A program made the translations under genes and the position numbers. Under the pieces are notes generated by a model, which was not told the origin of the DNA, searched no databases, and saw nothing but the letters and a program-made list of their open reading frames with translations. A stretch of 64,000 nt of DNA from contig NZ_CALXYQ010000004.1 in the NCBI RefSeq assembly GCF_944393015.1, positions 62,001-126,000 of the forward strand, written 5' to 3'. The stretch comes from an uncultured Brachyspira sp. (GTDB lineage Bacteria; Spirochaetota; Brachyspiria; Brachyspirales; Brachyspiraceae). The number at the start of each line of letters is the position of its first letter. The first letter of the stretch is position 1. Positions 2,913 through 61,305 of the stretch are shown piece by piece.

Positions 2913-3794
2913 ATGGATAATAATATTTCTAAAAACACTATGAAGCTTTTATTAGAGATGCAGCAAAATGAGGTTACTGAGCATGCTGTTTATTTGAATC
3001 TTATTAAGTTCGTAAAAAAAGAAGATGATAGAAAAGTATTAGAAAACATTGCAAAAGAAGAATATGCTCATTCAAAAATACTAGAAAAATACACCAATAA
3101 AAAATTAAAGCCTCAAAGATTAAAAGTATTAAAATATTTTATATTGAGTTTTATATTAGGATATACATTTGTAATAAAGATAATGGAAGGAGGGGAGAAG
3201 AACGCCGAGAATATATACTCAAAAATAGTTTCCGAAGTTCCTGATGCTAAAAAGATAGCTTTTGATGAAGATGAGCATGAAAACAAACTCATATCAATAC
3301 TAGATGAAGACAGGCTGAAATATGCAGGTTCTATGGTTTTGGGTTTAAGCGATGCCCTAGTAGAAATAAGCGGTACATTAGCAGGTTTAAGTTTTGCTTT
3401 ACAAAATAATAAATTAGTTGCATTATCAGGAATCATAACAGGAATATCAGCTACATTATCTATGGCTTCTTCTGAGTATTTATCTGCTAAAGCTGAAGGT
3501 GATAAAAATGCTTTTAAATCATGTTCATACACAGGGATAATGTATTTAATAACTGTAACACTTTTAATATTGCCTTATCTTATTTTTCCAAGCAATCATT
3601 ATTTATACGCTTTAATTACCATGCTTTGTATAGTTGTATTTATAATATTTTTCTTCACTTATTATATATCTGTTGCTAAGAGTTTACCTTTCAAAAAAAG
3701 ATTTATTGAGATGGCTGGAATTAGTTTAACAGTTGCAGGAATAAGTTTTTTAATAGGGCTTTTAGTTAAGCAGTTTTTAGGTATAGATATTTAA
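2913..3794 (+). CDS. MbfA-like membrane iron exporter (ferritin-like domain fused to VIT1/CCC1)
   Basis: About 293 residues. The N-terminal ~130 residues form a rubrerythrin/ferritin-like four-helix domain with metal-ligand ExxH-type motifs (NEVTEHAV, KEEYAHSK, DEDEHENK). The C-terminal ~160 residues are a VIT1/CCC1-type membrane domain beginning GLSDALVEISGTLAG, with about five membrane helices. In MbfA proteins the ferritin-like part senses or collects iron and the membrane part exports iron or manganese. The open frame reaches a TTG at 2901 and an ATG at 2907, but the ATG at 2913 sits 7 bases after GGA and is preferred. The gene is convergent with, and abuts, the next gene (stop codons back to back). 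Confidence 0.85.
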   Translation: MDNNISKNTMKLLLEMQQNEVTEHAVYLNLIKFVKKEDDRKVLENIAKEEYAHSKILEKYTNKKLKPQRLKVLKYFILSFILGYTFVIKIMEGGEKNAENIYSKIVSEVPDAKKIAFDEDEHENKLISILDEDRLKYAGSMVLGLSDALVEISGTLAGLSFALQNNKLVALSGIITGISATLSMASSEYLSAKAEGDKNAFKSCSYTGIMYLITVTLLILPYLIFPSNHYLYALITMLCIVVFIIFFFTYYISVAKSLPFKKRFIEMAGISLTVAGISFLIGLLVKQFLGIDI

Positions 3795-4757: not shown

Positions 4758-4867
4758 CGCGATCACCCCTATATTTTATTCCTAATAATAGGCTATAATA
4801 TTTTAGTTAAAAAATCAAGGAATTGTATAAAATTATTTACTTTTATTTATTAAAAAATATTATAATT

Positions 4868-5302
4868 AACGCACGGTATAAAGACTATAATATCTAGTTT
4901 TATTTTCATTATAAATAAATTAATAATAATATCAGCATTAATCGTGCGGTATATAAACAATAATTTTAAATAAAGCTTGGGTGGGTGTTATAATAACAGA
5001 AAAAGTTTTAAAAGAAAAACAGTATAAAAATAACTTAAAAAATTTAAAAATTAAAAGGGTGGGGGAGTGAGAATAAAGTTTTAAAACTTAATTACATTTG
5101 CCCGCCCTTTATATTTATAGTTTTATTATTAATATTAACTTTAATTTCTTTTAATAATATAATTAGAATTTATTAGCTGCCCACCCAGGTATTTTTTATA
5201 TTTAAAGCGAATATACCCGCACGTAGAATAAAATTTAGAATATAGATTTATTTAGAGTTACAATTTAGACTATAAATAATAGTTTTACTAACCGTGCGTT
5301 AA
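4868..5302. repeat. Family C composite repeat, copy 2 (full length)
   Basis: A full, nearly symmetric copy filling the space between the membrane-anchored protein gene and argS. Outer arms are AACGCACGGT (4868) with CGTGCGGT (4943), and CCCGCACG (~5217) with ACCGTGCGTT (5291). Inner boxes are CTTGGGTGGG (4976), GGGTGGGGGAG (5058), TGCCCGCCCTTT (5099) and GCCCACCCAGG (5178). The centre is palindromic around TTTTAAAA. Nothing else is visible in 4767-5323. Confidence 0.8.
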
Positions 5303-5323
5303 GAAAATAATTTTTAATTAAAA

Positions 5324-8981: not shown

Positions 8982-9937
8982 ATTATGTATTAGGATATAT
9001 TCTTTTAATTGCCTATTTATTTGCTTTTATAATAGGTTTTTCTACAATACTTTTTTCTATTATCTATTATATAATAGAAAGAGTTGCATGGCTTAAATAT
9101 TATATAATATTTTTATTTACTTTTGCTTTTCTTCTTTTAATAAGGGCTGTAAAACTTCTAAGTTTTTTAACGGTCCCGTATTTCATGTCTAACAATATAT
9201 TTAATACTTTATATTTCTTTAGTTTCTCTATAGCTATGTCATTAATGCTTTATTTCATACCGGCATTTTTATATAGATTTCTCAATATAAAATGGAGTTT
9301 CAAACAAAATATAGCCTATATTACAATATCTATAATTCATTTTATTTTAGGCATATTGGGAATATTGATAAAATTTGATATGTATATAATAAGCAGTATT
9401 ATCTTCTATATTTCTATAATAGTAATATTTATAATAGGAGCTGTAAACTATAAAAATATAGAAGATAAAACGATGAAATTAATAGTTAAGATACTAGGAC
9501 TTATAACTATAGTAATATATCCGGTTCTTATATATCAGCTCATAATTTATAGAGTAGAAGCAGCTGATATAGGCTCTATGGACATAACATTGGTATTGTT
9601 TTATATATGGTGGAATCTAGTAATGCTTGGCTATTTGTCTTGGTATTTCATTAATATAGTTAATAATAAAATGTCTAATCCTAATAATTTAAATAATGAT
9701 AACAATATAAAAGATGATATCAAAACAGAAAATGAATCTTCAAAAGAAATAGATGTAAATTTAACTAGAAGAGAAAAAGAAATATTATCATATCTTCTTG
9801 ACGGCAAAACTAATAAGGAAGTATCATTAATACTTAGTATATCCCTAAATACAGTAAATAATCATGTTGCTAATATATATGAAAAATCAGGCGTGAAAAA
9901 TAGGGTAGAATTGGTTAATAAGTTTTCTAAGAATTGA
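8978..9937 (+). CDS. Polytopic membrane protein with C-terminal LuxR-type DNA-binding domain
   Basis: 319 residues. About seven hydrophobic segments cover residues 1-225, then comes an Asn/Asp/Lys-rich linker. A LuxR/GerE helix-turn-helix occupies about 260-317: LTRREKEILSYLLDGKTNKEVSLIL followed by SLNTVNNHVANIYEKSGVKNR. This is a one-component membrane-bound transcription regulator. It starts inside the stop of the kinase-like gene, so the two probably act together, with sensing in the membrane or by the soluble partner and output at DNA. Its target is not visible. A hairpin terminator follows at 9977. Confidence 0.85.
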   Translation: MNYVLGYILLIAYLFAFIIGFSTILFSIIYYIIERVAWLKYYIIFLFTFAFLLLIRAVKLLSFLTVPYFMSNNIFNTLYFFSFSIAMSLMLYFIPAFLYRFLNIKWSFKQNIAYITISIIHFILGILGILIKFDMYIISSIIFYISIIVIFIIGAVNYKNIEDKTMKLIVKILGLITIVIYPVLIYQLIIYRVEAADIGSMDITLVLFYIWWNLVMLGYLSWYFINIVNNKMSNPNNLNNDNNIKDDIKTENESSKEIDVNLTRREKEILSYLLDGKTNKEVSLILSISLNTVNNHVANIYEKSGVKNRVELVNKFSKN

Positions 9938-9976
9938 TTATGTATATAATTACTTGCTTATGATAACTAGTTTTTT

Positions 9977-10011
9977 AAAAAATAGTAAGTTTTTTTATTC
10001 TTACTATTTTT
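9977..10011 (+). terminator. Intrinsic terminator after the membrane-LuxR gene
   Basis: Stem AAAATAGTAAG / CTTACTATTTT with a T-rich loop and tail. It lies between the plus-strand regulator operon and the convergent flgM gene and may work in both directions. Confidence 0.65.
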
Positions 10012-10053
10012 AAGATTAGAATATTGAAATAATTAAATTATAAAAGAGTCTTA

Positions 10054-10347
10054 TTATTCTATAGGCATAGAATCTATTATAGAATTAGCCAAAGAGTTTA
10101 GAACCTCTTCTCTTAGGGCACCATCTTGCATATATAATTCTAATCTTTTTTTAGCTTCGGCTATCTTTTCTTCTCTCACATCAGGAGCTTCTTTGATAAT
10201 GTTTACTAACTTTTCATTTTGCAAAGCTAATCTTGATTCATTAGAAATTTCTATTCTATCTGAACCCATTTTAGAAACTTTTTCATTATACTTAATGTTA
10301 GATTTCTGTTGTATATTTGATGTGCCGCCTATTTTATCAATTGTCAT
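10054..10347 (-). CDS. flgM: FlgM-like anti-sigma-28 factor
   Basis: 97 residues from the ATG at 10347, preceded by AAGGAG at 7 bases. The longer frame to 10413 lacks a site and runs through rsmI. The N-terminus MTIDKIGG and the C-terminal half (DRIEISNESRLALQNEK, then PDVREEKIAEAKKRLE) match the FlgM pattern. FlgM binds and holds the flagellar sigma factor FliA until the hook-basal body is complete. Its start overlaps the last 11 bases of rsmI, so it is translated from the same message. The adjacency of a flagellar checkpoint gene to an rRNA methyltransferase has no obvious functional link. Confidence 0.75.
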   Translation of the reverse strand: MTIDKIGGTSNIQQKSNIKYNEKVSKMGSDRIEISNESRLALQNEKLVNIIKEAPDVREEKIAEAKKRLELYMQDGALREEVLNSLANSIIDSMPIE

Positions 10348-11182
10348 AGTCTGACTCCTTACATGAATTATTTTCGGCATTAGCCCCGCATACTTTAGAT
10401 TTTCTATTATCAATTATAATACAAAATTCACCTTTAGTTAGTATACTACCATCTGTAAAAAAATCAAGGATATTTTTAGCCTCTGATCTTATTATTTGCT
10501 CGAACTGTTTAGTTATTTCTCTTCCGATAACAATATCCGTTTTTTCTCCAAATATGTTAACAATATCTTCTATGCATTCTTTTACTCTGTATACAGATTC
10601 ATATATTACTATTATTGTTTTTTGATTATTATACAAGTCTTTTAATTGATTTCTTCTTTTACCTGATTTATTAGAAAGAAATCCAACGAACAAGGTATTT
10701 CCTGAAATTCCAGAAACAGAGAGTAGGGAAGTGAATGCAGATATTCCGCCTACAGGTACTATTTTTATATTTTTTTCTATAGCCAATTTTATGATGCTAA
10801 CTCCAGGATCGCTTATGCAAGGTGTGCCTGCATCGCTTACTATAGCAGCGGAGTTTCCATTTAATATTTCATTTATATATTCATTTATTCTATATTCAGA
10901 TGAATGGCTATGATAAGAAAATAATTTATTTTTAATATTATAAAAGTTTAGAAGTTTCAAAGCCACTCTAGTATCTTCAGCCAATATAAAATCAACATTT
11001 CTAAGAATTTTCAAAGCTCTTATAGTTATATCTTCCATATTTCCTATAGGAGTAGCAACTACATATATAACGCCATTTTCAACAGCATTTTTATTATTAT
11101 CATTATTTGTTATTTCTTCTATAAACTCTTCATCACTTTTAAAATCATTATTATTGATGATTTCTTTATTATTCTTTTTAAT
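10337..11182 (-). CDS. rsmI: 16S rRNA (cytidine1402-2'-O)-methyltransferase
   Basis: 281 residues if started at an ATT codon (11182-11180). RsmI methylates C1402 of 16S rRNA using S-adenosylmethionine. The conserved start VVATPIGNMEDIT, LAEDTR, SDAGTPCISDPG and YESVYRV are all present. The first in-frame ATG (11038) lies after VATPIGN and would delete it. Upstream, the frame runs back to a TAA with no ATG, GTG, TTG or CTG. GGAG lies 7 bases before the ATT, so a rare AUU start (as known for infC) with an Asn/Glu-rich extension of about 36 residues is the best reading. A sequencing or frameshift error is the alternative. Confidence 0.88.
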   Translation of the reverse strand: MKKNNKEIINNNDFKSDEEFIEEITNNDNNKNAVENGVIYVVATPIGNMEDITIRALKILRNVDFILAEDTRVALKLLNFYNIKNKLFSYHSHSSEYRINEYINEILNGNSAAIVSDAGTPCISDPGVSIIKLAIEKNIKIVPVGGISAFTSLLSVSGISGNTLFVGFLSNKSGKRRNQLKDLYNNQKTIIVIYESVYRVKECIEDIVNIFGEKTDIVIGREITKQFEQIIRSEAKNILDFFTDGSILTKGEFCIIIDNRKSKVCGANAENNSCKESDYDN

Positions 11183-11257
11183 AGTAATTCTCCAGTATTA
11201 TATTTATTTTTATTATATATTAAACTTTTCATTAACACAATAATACTGAATCAAAAA

Positions 11258-11273
11258 TGTTTCACATGAAACA
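11258..11273. promoter_or_regulatory. parS-like ParB-binding palindrome 1
   Basis: TGTTTCACATGAAACA, one mismatch (in the centre) from the canonical parS TGTTTCACGTGAAACA. First of four in 870 bp of gene-free DNA. Confidence 0.75.
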
Positions 11274-11325
11274 TTTTTAAACTAGTATATAGTTAAAAAA
11301 CTATATTTTTATAAATGTATTATCA

Positions 11326-11580
11326 ACTTTTTGCTGCACTCATTCTAAGTACTTCATCAAAGTTTGTGTGTACATCACAGGCTTATTTCAGCGAGTCAAA
11401 CGTTATTCTCTGAGTAGGTGCTTTACCTACAGCAAAAGAAATTGGGTGTTGCAAATTACGCAGAGAAGCATGACTGTGTGCTTCGCAGGGTTAGTCCATA
11501 CAAATAACTTAAATTCAAAATTGTGTTTTTGACAAACTATAAAATTTTTAGTATATTCAATACTATTAAATGTATACAAT
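11326..11580 (-). repeat. Diverged family B-like segment with hairpins
   Basis: This is less AT-rich than its surroundings. It contains GCAAAAGAAATTGGGTG, comparable with the Y unit at 52 kb, a hairpin GTAGGTGCTTTACCTAC (~11414), a second hairpin GAAGCA...TGCTTC (~11465) and, at the right end, TTGACAAACTATAAAATTTT near the X/Y junction sequence. It is most likely a decayed family B copy; a structured RNA is possible but unsupported. Confidence 0.4.
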
Positions 11581-11666
11581 GTATATTTGCAAAGTTATGA
11601 GTTTTTATAAATACTAAAATTATTTAATATTTTCTACTATCTTAAATAAATTATTAAAATACTAAA

Positions 11667-11682
11667 GTTTTCACGTGAAACT
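11667..11682. promoter_or_regulatory. parS-like ParB-binding palindrome 2
   Basis: GTTTTCACGTGAAACT. The central 12 bases TTTCACGTGAAA match parS perfectly; three outer bases differ. Confidence 0.7.
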
Positions 11683-11908
11683 AATAATTAATATAATATT
11701 TTTAAAATATTAGACTTGTTTCAAAACTAATATATTAATAATTAGTGTTGATTAGGATAATTATAATTTTTTGTTCTTTTTACCGCCGAAAAATGTACTA
11801 TTATAATAATCAACTATAATTAGCCAATTTTTTAATAATACATTTTATTTATGGGATATTTCCTCATTATATTAATTTTTTAAATGGTTATATTATTATA
11901 GAATAAAA

Positions 11909-11924
11909 AGTTTCATGTGAAACA
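11909..11924. promoter_or_regulatory. parS-like ParB-binding palindrome 3
   Basis: AGTTTCATGTGAAACA, two mismatches from parS. Immediately followed by a family C arm (CGCACGG at 11931). Confidence 0.7.
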
Positions 11925-11929
11925 TTTTA

Positions 11930-12033
11930 TCGCACGGTTAGCAGGTTAATAATATATTGAATTGTTTTTATATATTCGCCTTAAATTTAAATTAAGTAAA
12001 TCGTGCGTTATATTTGGGGTGGGAGGGCGGGCT
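11930..12033. repeat. Family C repeat, copy 3 (short)
   Basis: Left arm TCGCACGGTTAGCAGG at 11930, right arm TCGTGCGTTA at 12001, and a merged GC block GGGGTGGGAGGGCGGGC at 12016. Only the arm hairpin and one box block remain. It lies between parS-like sites 3 and 4. Confidence 0.7.
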
Positions 12034-12114
12034 AAATAAAATTTATTTAATTAATAAAATTATATCTGAAAGCTAATGAATCTATATTAATAATTAATGC
12101 TTTAGTATATAAAA

Positions 12115-12130
12115 TGTTTCATGTGAAACA
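12115..12130. promoter_or_regulatory. parS-like ParB-binding palindrome 4
   Basis: TGTTTCATGTGAAACA, one central mismatch from parS. The other contents of 11183-12265 are the family B-like and C segments; no gene is seen there. Confidence 0.75.
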
Positions 12131-12265
12131 TTTTTTATATTTAAATAAATTCTTATCAATTACGATATTTAGCGTCTAATAATTTTAAAAATAATATTTT
12201 ATTTTAAAGCCTTTAATATGTTTTAAAACTTGTAAAATATATTAATTAAATATAAAATTAATCTT

Positions 12266-13192
12266 ATGAATATAAAAGAAAATATTTCTAATATAAAAAA
12301 GAAATTGATAAAAAGAAAAGATATACTATTTTCTGTTATAGTATCTTTTATACTGCATATATTTTTATTCAGCTTTATAAATACTTCTATAATGCAGGAA
12401 GTATTTGCTTATGAGAAAGCTAAAAAGGAAGCAGAAGAAAGATATAAGAAAGATAACTATATGTTTTTGGTAGAAACTCCTGAAGTAGATGAGGAAGAAA
12501 GTAAAGAAGATACTCCTTTTGCATCCGATAAAACATTGAGATCAAAAGGTCAAACAGATGTTAAGCCTTCAAAAGTATTTTCTGATACTTCTGTTTTTTC
12601 TTTCTTAGGAGATGGAGCCAATAGCCCTATAATAGAAAGAAGACCTACTGAAAATATAAAGCCTAATAATAATCAAATTCAGCCTAAAGAAAAAAAAGAA
12701 TTAGGAAATGAAATATCCAGAGATAAAGTAGAAACTTATAAACCTAAAAATCCGGGAATAAAAGGTGATACTAAAATACCTGCATCATTTGAAGAAGGTG
12801 CTGATAGGGCAGTTGTATTTTCAAGCGAAACAGGAAGTATGCAGCTTGGTACTAAGGCTCAGGAATATTTTTGGTATTTCTATGCATTAGTTGGTTCTAT
12901 AAGAGATTCTTGGTATCTTACTATTCCTAATCAAGCTCATTATTTAGGACTTATAAGAACCGATGAAGTTGAGGTATTGCTTTCTATAGATGAAGAAGGA
13001 AATATAGAGTTTGAAAAATTCTTGAAAACATCTATAAATGGTCAAACTAGTTTGGATAATTCATGCTCAAAAGCTATTGAGTATGCTAAGAAATTAAAAC
13101 CTCCTCCACAGGGTTTATGGAATGACTATGCTGAAAATGGTAAGATTTATATACCTTTTAAATTTATATATCAAAACTTCTCCAGAGAGTAA
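12266..13192 (+). CDS. TonB-like envelope protein
   Basis: 308 residues. A short cytoplasmic N-terminus leads to one membrane helix (about 20-42). A long charged, Pro/Lys/Glu-rich linker (about 50-190) includes KPNNNQIQPKEKK and ETYKPKNPG. The C-terminal domain of about 110 residues reads EYFWYFYALVGSIRDSWYL, then VEVLLSIDEEGNIEFEKFL and KLKPPPQGLW, the usual TonB/TolA C-terminal pattern. TonB-type proteins pass the proton motive force from ExbBD to outer-membrane transporters. No exbBD or receptor lies next to it. TolA or a gliding-type TonB relative remains possible. Confidence 0.7.
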   Translation: MNIKENISNIKKKLIKRKDILFSVIVSFILHIFLFSFINTSIMQEVFAYEKAKKEAEERYKKDNYMFLVETPEVDEEESKEDTPFASDKTLRSKGQTDVKPSKVFSDTSVFSFLGDGANSPIIERRPTENIKPNNNQIQPKEKKELGNEISRDKVETYKPKNPGIKGDTKIPASFEEGADRAVVFSSETGSMQLGTKAQEYFWYFYALVGSIRDSWYLTIPNQAHYLGLIRTDEVEVLLSIDEEGNIEFEKFLKTSINGQTSLDNSCSKAIEYAKKLKPPPQGLWNDYAENGKIYIPFKFIYQNFSRE

Positions 13193-13584
13193 TTTTGTAA
13201 TACAGCAAATCATATAATTAATTGTAATAATGTATATATGAAAGAATTTAATATAGCTATATGTCATTATAATAGTTTTATTTAGTGAATATAGAAAATA
13301 CTATAAACTCAAAGTTTTCGAAATTAAAGTATAAAATATATTAAAATACTAATTAATCAAAATGATTCTAAGATAATTAAGAATAATAAATTAATTGATA
13401 ATTTGTCTTTAGCATTCCATTAAAAAATTATGATAGATAATTTCAATATAAAGTATAAAAGATATATAAAATAAAAATTTCAATAATATTATATGTTAAA
13501 ATTTTTTATTGTTGAATAAATTTAATGACTCTAAAAATATATAGTATATGAACTAATACGCAAAATTAAAATATAATAAATAAA
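13193..13584. other. AT-rich gene-free stretch
   Basis: Nothing recognisable: very AT-rich, no frame with a ribosome-binding site, and no terminator hairpin after the TonB-like gene. Confidence 0.5.
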
Positions 13585-13725
13585 GTGGAGATATAAATAA
13601 AGTTTAAAACCCAATTACATTTGCAACCATTTATATTTTTCACTTAATTTTAAATATATGTTTTTTACTTTCTTATTGCTTAATTAGAAATTACAGCATT
13701 GGTCCAAGTGTTTTTCCTATTTTAA
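13585..13725. repeat. Family C repeat, copy 4 (decayed)
   Basis: The layout of the central and right parts is kept, but most GC boxes are mutated. GTGGAGATATAAATAAAG leads into AAAACCCAATTACATTTG, then CAACC where other copies have CCCGCCC. Further right, TTAGAAATTACAGCATTGG and CCAAG stand in for the right box. Confidence 0.55.
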
Positions 13726-13893
13726 CCTATAAATATTTTTTATATATTAAAATTTAACACTTTATATTATATTATTTTAATAAAAATTGTAACCAATTAC
13801 ATAAAATTTATTCATATTTACATAGTTTTATAAAAATATTTTACTTTATTATACTTTTTTATCATAAAATTTAAACAATTTATTATAATATAA

Positions 13894-13921
13894 TTGACAA
13901 AAATTCTATAAATGTTATAAT
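13894..13921 (+). promoter_or_regulatory. Sigma-70-type promoter of the Fe-ADH gene
   Basis: TTGACA at 13894-13899 and TATAAT at 13916-13921, spacer 16. Both hexamers are perfect, which suggests strong expression of the gene at 13958. Confidence 0.8.
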
Positions 13922-13957
13922 AAAGAACAATAAAGAGATATTGCAGGAGATTAAAGA

Positions 13958-15127
13958 ATGTCAAGATTTACAATTCCAAGAGATTTATACTACGGCGATA
14001 ATGCTATGGAGGAATTAAAGAATTTAAAAGGTTACAAAAAAGCTATAATCGTTACAGGCGGTTCTTCTATGAAAAGAGGAGGATTCCTTGATAAATGCGA
14101 AAAAATATTAAAAGATACTGGTTTAGAAGTTAAGATATTTGACGGAGTGGAACCAGACCCTTCTATAGAAACAGTTTATAGAGGTGCTGAAGCTATGAGA
14201 GAATTTAATCCTGATGTAATAGTTGCATTGGGAGGAGGTTCTGCACTTGATGCTGCTAAAGCTATGTGGGTCTTTTATGAATATCCTGAGAAGAAATTCG
14301 ATGATATTAAAACTCCTTTTACTATGCCTAAACTTAGAAAGAAAGCAATATTTGCAGCAATTCCTTCTACAAGCGGTACAGCTTCAGAGGTTACTGCTTT
14401 CTCAGTTATAACTGATTATTCAACAAACATTAAATATCCATTAGCAGATTTTGAGATTACTCCAGACATTGCTATACTTGATTATTCAATACCTATGACA
14501 ATGCCTGAGACAGTTTCTGCTGATACTGGTATGGATGCACTTACTCACTCTATAGAGGCTTATGTTGCAGGACTTAGAACTGATATAACAGATGCTTTGG
14601 CTATGAAAGCAATTGATATGATTGTTCATAATATAGAAAAAGCAGTGAAAGGCGATAAAGAGGGCAGAGCAAAACTTCATGTTGCTCAATGTTTAGCTGG
14701 TATGGCTTTCTCTAATGCTTTACTTGGTATAGTTCACAGCTTAGCTCATAAAACAGGTGCTGAATTCCACATTACTCATGGAAGATGCAATGCTATACTT
14801 CTTCCTTATGTTATTCAATATAATTCAAAAGTTTGTGCCGACAGATTTGCTGATATAGCTAGAATGCTTAAACTTTCTGGAAATACTAATGAAGAGCTTA
14901 CAGCTTCTTTAGTAAATAAAGTTAAAGAATTGAATAGTAAATTAGGAATAAAACAAACTTATAAAGACAACGGCGTAACTGAAGATCACTTCAAACAAAA
15001 ATGTGATGATATAGCTAAGAATGCCGTTGCTGATCCTTGTACAGGCTCTAACCCAAGAGAGACTGACGTTTCTAATATGAAAAAAGTATTAGAAGCAGCT
15101 TACTATGGAAATGATGTCAACTTTTAA
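13958..15127 (+). CDS. Iron-containing alcohol dehydrogenase (group III)
   Basis: 389 residues. This NAD(P)-linked alcohol/aldehyde oxidoreductase of fermentative metabolism is cytoplasmic. Visible motifs are the dinucleotide-binding GGGSALDAAKAMW, the metal-site helix GMDALTHSIEAY, and GIVHSLAHKTGAEFHITHG, which carries the metal-ligand histidines. Its size matches single-domain group III butanol dehydrogenases, with no aldehyde dehydrogenase fusion. A perfect promoter, the Shine-Dalgarno AGGAG at 8 bases and a strong terminator make it a stand-alone, probably highly expressed gene. Substrate cannot be settled by reading. Confidence 0.93.
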   Translation: MSRFTIPRDLYYGDNAMEELKNLKGYKKAIIVTGGSSMKRGGFLDKCEKILKDTGLEVKIFDGVEPDPSIETVYRGAEAMREFNPDVIVALGGGSALDAAKAMWVFYEYPEKKFDDIKTPFTMPKLRKKAIFAAIPSTSGTASEVTAFSVITDYSTNIKYPLADFEITPDIAILDYSIPMTMPETVSADTGMDALTHSIEAYVAGLRTDITDALAMKAIDMIVHNIEKAVKGDKEGRAKLHVAQCLAGMAFSNALLGIVHSLAHKTGAEFHITHGRCNAILLPYVIQYNSKVCADRFADIARMLKLSGNTNEELTASLVNKVKELNSKLGIKQTYKDNGVTEDHFKQKCDDIAKNAVADPCTGSNPRETDVSNMKKVLEAAYYGNDVNF

Positions 15128-21005: not shown

Positions 21006-21222
21006 ACTTGGGCGGGCGTTATAATTTCAGTGCTGGCATATAAGAATAATTAAGCAGAAATTTATAAATTGAACTTTATAGAAAAAAGGGCGGGGTATGT
21101 AATTAAGTTTTAAAGCTTTATTTTCACTCCCCACCCTTTATATTTATAGTTTAAATCTGAATTCAAACTTTTAATTTTCTTAATGACTCAATTATAATTT
21201 AATAGCATCCCACCCAAGATTA
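21006..21222. repeat. Family C repeat, copy 5
   Basis: Core without arms: CTTGGGCGGGCGTTA (21007), GGGCGGGGTATG (21088), a TTTTAAAG centre, CTCCCCACCCTTTA (21127) and CATCCCACCCAAG (21206). Confidence 0.75.
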
Positions 21223-21350
21223 TTTTAAATTTGTTGCTTCCTCACCGCCGCTGTGATACGCTTAAAATATATGCTGTTTTTTTAATTATAATTTACACAA
21301 TAAATGATAGTCTTCTAAACGTCGTTGAAAAGATTATAAATTTTAATAAA

Positions 21351-21439
21351 GTTTGGGCGGGCGTTATAATTTCAGTGCTGGCATATAAGAATAATTAAGC
21401 AGAAATTTCTAAATTGTACTTTATGGAAAAAAGGGCGGG
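21351..21439. repeat. Family C repeat, copy 5b (left-half duplication)
   Basis: About 89 bp nearly identical to 21006-21094 (offset 345), including the unusual inner segment TTTCAGTGCTGGCATATAAG. It is a recent local duplication of the left half, directly upstream of the NfeD gene. Confidence 0.75.
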
Positions 21440-21535
21440 AATTAGAATAAAGTCTTATAGATTATAATTATGCTTGAAAAAAATATAAGTTATACTAAAA
21501 TAATAATATAAATTTAAAAAAAGAGAGTGAGGTTA

Positions 21536-23244: not shown

Positions 23245-23399
23245 ACTAAGAACTCCTTTTTTAGTAATTAACTGCTAATATTAACGGTAATATAAAAAAA
23301 ACCTTAAGGAATTTATTTAATGCACTTAAAGTTATTATTTTGTAATTTTTTATAAAAGCGACAATTTTTGTCATTAATATATGTTATAATATAAAATTT

Positions 23400-23728
23400 T
23401 AATTACATATCCCGCCCTTTATGCTTTTGGATTAGTTTTGAAATTGCACTTTTTCTTTCTTTTATGCTTATTAAGAAATGTTAACACCCACCCAAGCGGT
23501 TTTAAAATTTAAATATAACACAACGCACGCTAAGCTAAGCAAAAAATATAAGTCAATTAATAATTCAAATTTTATTTATATTTGATAATCTGTTCACCGT
23601 GCGCAGAGTGAATTGTAAATCTAATTAAATCTAGGGCGGGTATGCTTTTACAAGAGGAACATTAAAGATATATGAAGTTATTATTTGAACTTGTGGCATA
23701 AAATATAAATGGGTGGGATGTGAGTATA
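23400..23728. repeat. Family C repeat, copy 6 (right half followed by a left-half fragment)
   Basis: CATATCCCGCCCTTTAT (23406), CACCCACCCAAGC (23487), arms ACGCACGC (23523) and CACCGTGCGC (23595), then CTAGGGCGGGTATGC (23631) and GGGTGGGATGTGAG (23711) leading into AAAGTTTTAAAAT. The halves appear in swapped order compared with the full copies. Nothing else is seen in 23245-23823. Confidence 0.7.
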
Positions 23729-23823
23729 AAGTTTTAAAATTATATATTAATAATTTTAATTGAAATATTTAATTATATGTTATAATATATATGAATACAT
23801 AAAGAATATATAAGGATATTTAA

Positions 23824-29049: not shown

Positions 29050-29192
29050 AAAGTGCGGGAATAGATGTAATTAAGTTTTAAAATTTATTTACATACCCCG
29101 CCCTTTATTCTTTTTAGCATTTGTTTTGAAATTTCTGCTTATTATTTCTTATATACTAACATTGAAATGTTAGCACCCGCCCAAGTTTTTAT
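29050..29192. repeat. Family C repeat, copy 7 (centre and right half)
   Basis: GTGCGGGAATAGATG (29052), a central TTTTAAAA palindrome, ATACCCCGCCCTTTA (29092) and TAGCACCCGCCCAAG (29170). The rest of 29034-29357 holds only the metN promoter. Confidence 0.75.
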
Positions 29193-45595: not shown

Positions 45596-45623
45596 TTTTT
45601 TTAATGATTTAAAAATTTAAATT

Positions 45624-45826
45624 AACGCACGGTGAACGGAACTTTATATATAGTTCAAAATTATAATTCATAATCAATTTATATATTTAGTTTTGCTATA
45701 CGTGCGGTGTACAGTCTTTAAATTTAAAATCCGCTTGGGTGGGTTGCTATAAATTCTAATTTAGTATCAAAGAAAATAAATAGTTTTAACTGCAAAATAA
45801 ATTAAAAAACTATAGGGGTGGGGGAT
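45624..45826. repeat. Family C repeat, copy 8 (left half)
   Basis: Arms TTAACGCACGGT (45622) and ACGTGCGGT (45700), CTTGGGTGGG (45734) and GGGGTGGGGGAT (45817). The right half is missing and is replaced by the terminator at 45851. Confidence 0.75.
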
Positions 45827-45850
45827 TTAAATAAACTTTCAAAAAAATAA

Positions 45851-49796: not shown

Positions 49797-49870
49797 TGGG
49801 CCAGCAGGGACTTGAACCCCGGACCCGATGATTATGAGTCATCTGCTCTAACCGACTGAGCTACTGGCCC
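49797..49870 (-). tRNA. tRNA with anticodon CAU (tRNA-Met elongator, or tRNA-Ile2)
   Basis: 74 bases, no encoded CCA. Acceptor stem GGGCCAG / CTGGCCC with discriminator A, D-arm TAGCTCAGTCGGTTAGAGCA, anticodon stem GATGA / TCATC around CTCATAA, T-arm with GGTTCAAGTCC. CAU with this body fits elongator tRNA-Met; the lysidine-modified tRNA-Ile2 has the same gene anticodon and cannot be excluded by eye. The initiator form is unlikely because it lacks the GGG/CCC anticodon stem. Confidence 0.95.
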
Positions 49871-51734: not shown

Positions 51735-52125
51735 ATATTATGAATTTAGGCGGGAGTTATCATTTCTAAATTCGTATTTAGATAAAATAAATTTAAAATT
51801 TTATAGTAAAATATTTAAGAAAAGATGGTGTGGTATGTAAATAAAGTTTAAAACTTTAATTACATTTGCCCACCCTTTAGATTTATTATTAAAATATAAA
51901 ATTTTTATTTTTTATTTATATATTACTTAAATCAGATTATTTTGAATCCCACCCAAGATTTTTTTAAATTTATTGCTGAAGCTAGATTATTTGTATATTA
52001 AAATGCAATATACCGAACGTACGTTGTACTTTGAATAAAGAAAGTCAATACCGTTCGGGACTAGTACTGGGTGGGTGCTGTAATTTCTAAGAACGCATTA
52101 AAGATAAAATAAATTAAAATTTCAT
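51735..52125. repeat. Family C repeat, copy 9 (variant arms)
   Basis: TTAGGCGGGAGTTATCATTTC (51746), a centre with GTTTAAAAC, TGCCCACCCTTTAG (51867) and ATCCCACCCAAG (51946). The arms here read CCGAACGTACG (52013) and ACCGTTCGGG (52051), a compensating change from CGCACGG/CCGTGCG that keeps the pairing. CTGGGTGGGTGCTG (52067) begins another left half. Confidence 0.7.
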
Positions 52126-52159
52126 AGTAAATATTGAATAAAAAATATCGTGGGAATTA

Positions 52160-59987: not shown

Positions 59988-60782
59988 TTATATTAATATT
60001 CCTCTTTTATAGCTTATAGAAGCCTTAACACAAGTTTGATTGCTTTCCAAATAAAATATATTATTACCAACATTTAATTCAGGCTGAACTCCTTTATAAT
60101 TATAAGATACTCCATTTACATTTAATTTCTCACCGTCAAAATCAATATTATAAACTCCGTTTCTTAGTTCTGCATTAAATTGTATTCCAAAATTCTGTCT
60201 ATTAGCAAATAAGAATTCTAATGCCCCGCCTACAACTATAAACTCTAAATTAAAATTCACAGGCACAGGAACTAAGCTTAATGATTTATAATTTATATCC
60301 TGTTTATTTTCTTCCGTAATAGGTAATTCATATTCCTCTTCTTTTTGTCTTAAAAAAACTTTATCCAATGCTTCAAGTGAAATATCTATCACACCCAAAT
60401 TATTTATATATTTTATATTGTATCCTCCAACTGATTTCATAATATATTCTGCTTCATAAATTTCATTCTCAAATATAGTTCTTATAAAATATCTTTTAAC
60501 ATTGCTTGATAAAATCATGCTTGTATATTTAGTATATTGTTCTTCTATTCTTACCCAAGAACCTAATTCATTTTTATATTCATAAATAGGAATGCCTATA
60601 TTAAAAGCTCTTCCGCTTGCGATATTTCCTATGCCTGTTTTTATAGAGTATGATCTGCTTCCGTCAGTTACTTTATAATCAGTTTTTATATCATCAGCCT
60701 TTATACTTTCTACTGTATTTATAATATCAAAAATCTCTTCTGAATATTTATCTCTTACTATCAGTTTAAAATCAAAAGCCAT
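59988..60782 (-). CDS. Phage distal-tail (Dit)-like protein
   Basis: 264 residues, beta-rich, starting MAFDFKLIVRDKYSEEI. The N-terminal ring-like part and the C-terminal galectin-like end (LRNGVYNIDFDGEKLNVNGVSYNY ... GNNIFYLESNQTCVKASISYKRG) fit the siphovirus Dit layout, in which G-N-N-I-F(Y) precedes the last strands. AGGAG lies before the ATG. First gene of the cluster. No head, portal, terminase or integrase gene is nearby. Confidence 0.5.
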   Translation of the reverse strand: MAFDFKLIVRDKYSEEIFDIINTVESIKADDIKTDYKVTDGSRSYSIKTGIGNIASGRAFNIGIPIYEYKNELGSWVRIEEQYTKYTSMILSSNVKRYFIRTIFENEIYEAEYIMKSVGGYNIKYINNLGVIDISLEALDKVFLRQKEEEYELPITEENKQDINYKSLSLVPVPVNFNLEFIVVGGALEFLFANRQNFGIQFNAELRNGVYNIDFDGEKLNVNGVSYNYKGVQPELNVGNNIFYLESNQTCVKASISYKRGILI

Positions 60783-60868: not shown

Positions 60869-61305
60869 TTTAACGCACGTTGAATATATTTTTATTTTTT
60901 ATTTAAATTAGAATTATCAATAATCATATATTTTAAATTTTATTTATCGTGCGTTTGTAGTTTTTAATTTTTAAAAAAACTTGGGTGGGTGCTATAATTT
61001 CTAATGAAGTAATAAAGAACTTGAAAGTAAAAATAACAAAATAAATTAAAAAGCATAGAGGGTGGGCGAGTGTAATTAAATTTTAAAACTTAATTTACAT
61101 ACCCCGCCCTTTTGTTTTTTCTGCTTAACTTTGAAATTATAACTTTAATTTGTTTTGATGCTGAATTAGAAATGTTAACGCCCGCCCTAGATTTTATTAG
61201 GTTTAAAATCTATTAAACGCACGTTTAACTAAGATTTAATTTCAATGAATAATTTGAAATCGAAATAAATTTATATTTTTTGCTTTACTCTCCGTGCAGT
61301 ATATG
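60869..61305. repeat. Family C repeat, copy 10 (full length, best preserved)
   Basis: Arms TTAACGCACGTTG (60869) with ATCGTGCGTTTG (60946), and AAACGCACGTTTA (61213) with CCGTGCAG (61291). Boxes: CTTGGGTGGGTGC (60980), GGGTGGGCGAG (61060), TACCCCGCCC (61099), AACGCCCGCCCTAG (61177). The centre is palindromic around TTTTAAAA and the inner flanks read TATAATTTCTAA / TTAGAAATGTTA. It fills 60783-61381 except for the MCP terminator. Confidence 0.85.

Follow-up and report, generated by a model that had tools for sequence, protein, structure and literature searches.

A stretch of intergenic DNA in an uncultured Brachyspira sp. carries GC-rich boxes in dyad symmetry at 60869-61303, and similar arrays recur elsewhere in the 64,000-nucleotide stretch of DNA analysed here (the window). 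A preliminary description of this family, called family C, left two readings side by side: a non-autonomous mobile element, or a binding array for a nucleoid protein. Which of them explains such arrays is the question that this locus raises. In our opinion, family C consists of cis-acting DNA arrays, putatively bound by protein, with a role in marking or organising that half of the Brachyspira chromosome which contains the origin and the centromere, a reading to which we give a probability of roughly 0.5.

Modules, arrays and host genomes

Family C is made of two modules. Module A reads CGCACG, 74 bp, CGTGCG, and module B reads CTTGGGYGGG, 78 bp, GGGYGGG, with b denoting B reversed. Outward from a GTTTTAAAAC centre, both sides show GGGYGGG, then CTTGGGYGGG and then a CGCACG/CGTGCG pair. 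The window and 20 source-genome stretches supplied 59 A copies and 75 B copies, on which profiles of the two modules were built. The profile search found nine arrays in the window, which bears out the estimate of about ten copies, and searches of reversed sequence gave no match below 1e-3. The arrays are as follows:

60869-61303: full ABbA array, the copy first described (A 60869-60955, B 60981-61083, b 61086-61187, A 61212-61303), in the same place in 10 genomes
4865-5303: full ABbA array downstream of argS, with orthologous copies in L071, L072 and G012
1619-1835: AB half array
11927-12012: lone A module inside the parS cluster
21008-21455: BbAB array with B locally duplicated
23394-23733: bAB array
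29080-29184, minus strand: single b module
45621-45839: AB half array downstream of a UvrD-helicase gene
51749-52138: BbB array, its middle A undetected (decayed)

Both full copies lie where the preliminary description had placed them and have the boxes described for them, with the outer right box of 60869-61303 decayed (CCGTGCAG). Of the features reported before, half and decayed copies were recovered, as was the local duplication, in the form of near-identical B modules at 21008 and 21353. The intergenic location claimed for all copies also holds, an ORF of at least 80 aa being overlapped by 1 of 132 arrays.

Scanning the window and the 20 source-genome stretches (285,318 bases), which had been picked because they bear matches and had also trained the profiles, gave 176 modules in 67 arrays. 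The set grew to 356 modules in 135 arrays after sampled stretches and the parS regions of four other genomes were added. In this larger set, 214 of the 221 adjacent module pairs obey the order b A, A B, B b, so that the underlying unit is A B b in a pattern A B b A B b, with a period of ~344 bp and alternating dyads ~172 bp apart. Individual sites are sections of this pattern, namely AB, bAB, ABbA, ABb and bABbA. The swapped halves noticed earlier do exist, but a random arrangement does not fit with this single order. Tandem repetition accounts for five of the seven exceptions (A b), for example in the 233-bp array of G006. The spacing of the boxes over five genomes is 71–77 bp for A (mode 74–75) and 74–80 bp for B (mode 77–79). 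The strongest period of the A/T tracts, as computed without a control, is 9.0 bp versus the helical 10.5 bp.

Some side observations concern these arrays. The tandem array of G006 (L300 4034-5626) has a 233-bp period, contains A and b only and is the main exception to the order. An eight-module tandem array adjoins argS in B. hampsonii (L075 11719-12628) and has nearly identical units of 347 bp. Another intergenic repeat, ATCAACTTTTCCCG ... CAAAGTTGCAAAAGTG, occupies the broken centre of several Bb palindromes; it was located in L153 (~1345-1420 and ~3660-3740), in L156 (after 269) and in L170 (near 8061), and similar text stands at 11322-11380 of the window.

Over the whole source genome, 146 matches to the strict B pattern (67 + 79) were counted against 1 for the reversed-pattern control, so that the matches are not due to chance. 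The same pattern is present in 23 of the 26 Brachyspira genomes among the 61 genomes scanned; hence the family is not restricted to the window. Outside Brachyspira, one or two strict B matches occur in 3 of 35 genomes, where the control counts are 0, 2 and 1. Family C is genus-specific. The three Brachyspira genomes with no strict B match nevertheless have ParB, which indicates that the system is dispensable in the genus.

Position relative to parS and the replication origin

The chromosomal position of the copies was analysed in G008 (100 of 100 box matches), G016 (46 of 46), G019 (62 forward matches listed) and G006 (34), with G012 left out. The short-pattern matches of G019 and G008 were counted genome-wide and possibly include genic ones; the reversed-pattern controls were 4 and 4. 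The results were:

G008: circular mean of the copies 23 kb from parS; 78/100 in the chromosome quarter nearest parS and 1/100 in the farthest; KS p for parS centring 7e-29, or 3e-13 with copies within 3 kb collapsed (n 63)
G016: circular mean 33 kb from parS; nearest quarter 36/46, farthest 0/46; KS p 3e-14, collapsed 2e-8 (n 31)
G019, among the forward matches listed: circular mean 19 kb from parS; nearest quarter 41/62, farthest 0/62; KS p 6e-12, collapsed 8e-10 (n 51)
G006, weakly centred: nearest quarter 14/34, farthest 6/34; KS p 0.11, collapsed 0.036

G008, G016 and G019 are related and some of their arrays are orthologous, so that they do not count as independent tests. The density of modules, taken over 60 stretches, falls from 1.87 per intergenic kb near parS to 0.78 at middle distance and 0.32 far away, which means that the bias does not arise from extra intergenic DNA; in G019 alone, the middle value (0.65) is below the far one (0.97). 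The stretches of G019, G016, G006 and G008 were sampled at intervals, more densely in mid-contig, and the G006 stretch at 2490001 was chosen for its matches. Separately, the recurrent 12-base words CCCACTTCTTTT and CTTTTTCCCGCC in the samples of G019, G016 and G008 (L241-L280, L307-L326) represent further dispersed families without parS bias.

The parS cluster is single in 7 of 7 genomes, bar one stray site with one mismatch in G019, and ParB (TIGR00180) is single-copy in 8 of the 8 genomes tested. The cluster lies at 1.676 Mb in G019 (the stray site at 1.825), 1.593 Mb in G016, 1.883 Mb in G006 and at most 15.4 kb from the start of G012. The GC-skew origin, estimated from 20 samples of 19 kb per genome and with wide intervals around the estimates, falls at ~1.75 Mb in G019, 1.59 Mb in G016 and 1.94 Mb in G006. 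In G019 the dnaA gene is at 2.957 Mb, and G016 and G006 have it at their start, so the parS cluster fits the sampled skew origin and not dnaA. According to the accessible text of the B. intermedia genome paper, the skew origin in Brachyspira is not linked to dnaA, and the chromosome numbering of strain PWS/A begins at the skew origin (PMC3163572). A terminus domain, the reading that results if dnaA is taken as the origin, was dropped because three indications, namely the sampled skew, the skew origin given in the literature and parS, agree in placing the copies at the origin.

The window itself holds a parS cluster, which together with the link of family C to it goes beyond the preliminary description:

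11258-11273: parS, one mismatch to TGTTTCACGTGAAACA
11667-11682: parS-like site, three mismatches
11909-11924: parS-like site, two mismatches, adjoining the A module
12016-12032, plus strand: G-box GGGGTGGGAGGGCGGGC beside the A module
12115-12130: parS, one mismatch

This cluster (11258-12130) sits between a TP_methylase gene and a TonB-like gene, far from dnaA, and the region probably holds the chromosome origin. The parS sites enclose the single A module at 11927-12012 together with the G-box, an arrangement that is also found in G012, G019, G008, G003 and B. hampsonii. In 6 of 6 aligned genomes, the two A boxes and the GGGCGGGC core have the same sequence. In two relatives (L301 7159, L305 8019), the TonB-like gene itself contains, within its coding sequence, a parS-like site with two mismatches.

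Six genomes have an A module within the parS core, and the density drops with distance; both would be expected if a copy at parS had seeded the family, which then spread locally by short hops. However, parS lacks an A module in both G016 and G006, and G016 is strongly centred all the same; the parS copy therefore did not seed the clustering in G016, and the weakened idea of local spread strikes us as very improbable. The arrays might also form a titration or timing device, that is, they would keep a reservoir of a replication-initiation factor, and their place near the origin would let them double early after initiation. Origin-centred density is what such a reservoir requires, and several species have more than 100 boxes per genome. 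Nevertheless, the A and B boxes are unlike the DnaA box, TTATCCACA, of which one near-match only occurs in 9000-14000 of the window (at 13051), dnaA is far away and 3 of the 26 genomes are without a strict match. This role thus appears improbable to us. Origin-near clustering can also have neutral or mutational causes.

Orthologous sites, array edges and arm pairing

The array upstream of a 264-aa gene (59988-60782 in the window), kept at the same place in 10 genomes, has an extra period in one of them and has lost B in one. Across eight orthologs of this site, 38 of 46 G/C positions are invariant in the boxes versus 18 of 57 in the spacers (consensus-based count, p 1.8e-7). The reference-based count gives 38/45 versus 18/58, and another rule for defining boxes gives 36/41 versus 18/47. 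With boxes defined from the reference sequence, which is a slight bias towards boxes, invariant G/C amounts to 43/45 in boxes versus 36/55 in spacers at the argS site (4 genomes), 38/40 versus 66/88 at the NfeD upstream site (3 genomes) and 31/36 versus 21/58 at the NfeD downstream site (3 genomes). In more distant species, the corresponding intergenic regions carry arrays of different composition or none at all, a pattern that suggests turnover.

Such data bear directly on the main rival explanation, namely a selfish non-autonomous palindromic element (MITE-like) spread by transposition or recombination, whose boxes would be transposition signals and whose origin bias would be one of insertion or survival. 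Its modules would be expected to look as they do here: palindromic, with inverted-repeat ends and no coding capacity. The edges of the arrays are sharp, just outside an A box (just beyond CCGTGCGTT) or at the Bb dyad centre. Strict B matches range from 0 to 169 between species, and recent tandem copies are present in L075, L209 and L300. Moreover, genes are avoided, and convergent gene pairs flank 42 of 120 array regions versus 37 of 242 empty intergenic regions. The conservation of box G/C at orthologous sites after insertion is, however, unexpected for a dead MITE copy, and an array is kept at one site in 10 genomes. A comparable parS bias is absent from the other intergenic repeats of the sampled stretches, and phage and plasmid collections gave no family C match. 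The Y1 HUH transposase (PF01797, RAYT/IS200 type) was absent from the source genome, with 5 of 14 control genomes positive, and a REP/RAYT system was rejected for this reason. In addition, comparison of the argS, NfeD and 264-aa-gene sites, which vary, revealed neither a clean, precise empty site nor a target-site duplication. The mobile element of the preliminary description is thus favoured by edges, copy variation and tandem expansion, and disfavoured by the conservation of the boxes at orthologous sites and by the transposase search. We consider it unlikely as an account of family C, although a selfish element could have been the source of the system.

A further test is given by the arms of the dyads. 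The two arms of A match at 0.553 within a copy versus 0.584 for shuffled partners (sd 0.006, n 128), and those of Bb at 0.594 versus 0.620 (sd 0.008, n 40), with 0 of 5000 permutations as low as observed; an earlier comparison of 22 copies had the same sign. As arms match less within than between copies, family C is not a hairpin family. Since the arms of one copy are not the best-matched ones, the symmetry lies in the boxes, as in protein sites, and perfect palindromes may be selected against. Sorting the B modules for clear types that would account for the unlike arms gave no clean split.

The folding of single-stranded DNA is stabler than that of shuffles (z -4.2), as would suit a family of structured RNAs, cruciforms or terminators with a dyad that is there for strand folding. 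Despite this stability, hairpin or RNA function was rejected by the arm test. The Rfam gathering search returned only a tRNA (49797-49870) and thus no described RNA family that would explain the arrays, and several arrays adjoin a terminator-like hairpin and lie outside the likely transcript, as judged by eye. We regard a folded-strand role as hardly credible.

Preferred reading and comparison with known systems

A binding array for chromosome organisation is the best reading because the arrays are kept in place, have fixed spacing, do not fold on themselves, lie outside genes and are densest at the centromere. The nucleoid-protein array of the preliminary description is now better supported, by the centring on parS and the origin, the fixed spacing, the conservation of the boxes and the A module in the parS core. 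The CGCACG and GGGYGGG boxes, arranged in phased arrays, would be the binding sites of at least one sequence-specific protein. Occupied arrays might then touch each other and the parS/ParB centre, and these contacts could draw the origin region together, or keep it distinct, once it has been replicated, in the way that MatP/matS acts on the terminus of E. coli. What would count is the density around parS and not the exact neighbouring gene; we propose that, since the identity of this gene would be unimportant, arrays may be free to turn over between intergenic regions. At somewhat less than even odds, we also think that the period-344 A/B arrays, putatively protein-bound, are a bacterial equivalent of pericentromeric repeats, with a density gradient around parS that defines an origin macrodomain and aids its segregation.

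The accessible portions, mainly in the open literature, of the published genomes of B. pilosicoli, B. hyodysenteriae, B. murdochii, B. intermedia and B. suanatina do not mention such a family; one paper, in its available part, remarks on frequent tandem repeats and nothing further (PMC8845278). That hundreds of modules are gathered about the centromere-like parS site suggests that family C is a DNA landmark, so far undescribed, of the chromosome half that holds the origin. With about a hundred or more copies, centred on parS within ~1% of the chromosome in three genomes, it gives a handle on the organisation and segregation of the origin region in these spirochaetes. The two box types with their fixed spacing are ready baits for candidate binding proteins. 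In addition, the Brachyspira parS cluster, probably together with the origin, can now be assigned to a defined intergenic region.

An intergenic position, a modular and palindromic build, alternating orientation and high copy number are features that family C shares with REP/BIME, BOX, Correia and other interspersed repeats of bacteria. Family C differs from them by the absence of a RAYT in the source genome, by larger modules of fixed spacing, by its centring on parS and by arms that do not covary. In the GC clusters of yeast mitochondrial DNA, short GC boxes occupy fixed places within intergenic DNA that is AT-rich; this resembles family C, but the organism and the organisation differ, and the similarity is one of likeness only.

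parS/ParB shares the clustering of sites near the origin, and in one clade an A module lies inside the parS cluster. Nevertheless, the parS sequence is unrelated to the CGCACG and GGGYGGG boxes, and family C is spread over ~1 Mb versus ~1 kb for parS. The Ori macrodomain of E. coli is served by maoS/MaoP with a single maoS site, according to the accessible text of the source (PMC5023128); it concerns the origin region, as family C does, but with one site instead of many copies.

The nearest parallel is the Ter macrodomain of E. coli, where MatP binds 23 matS sites, each 13 bp long, that are spread over 800 kb, and the available part of the same paper states that no dispersed site families were found for the other E. 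coli macrodomains (PMC3330122). Going by that part, matS and family C are alike in having many dyad sites over one large region centred on one chromosome pole; centring on one chromosomal region is strong in G008, G016 and G019 and weak in G006. They differ in that matS belongs to the terminus and family C to the side of the skew origin and parS. Moreover, a full family C site has up to 8 or more boxes over ~220–440 bp, the copies are several times more numerous than the matS sites described there, and the sequence is another one. If our reading is true, family C would provide the origin domain with a repeated set of sites, in the way that matS does for the terminus.
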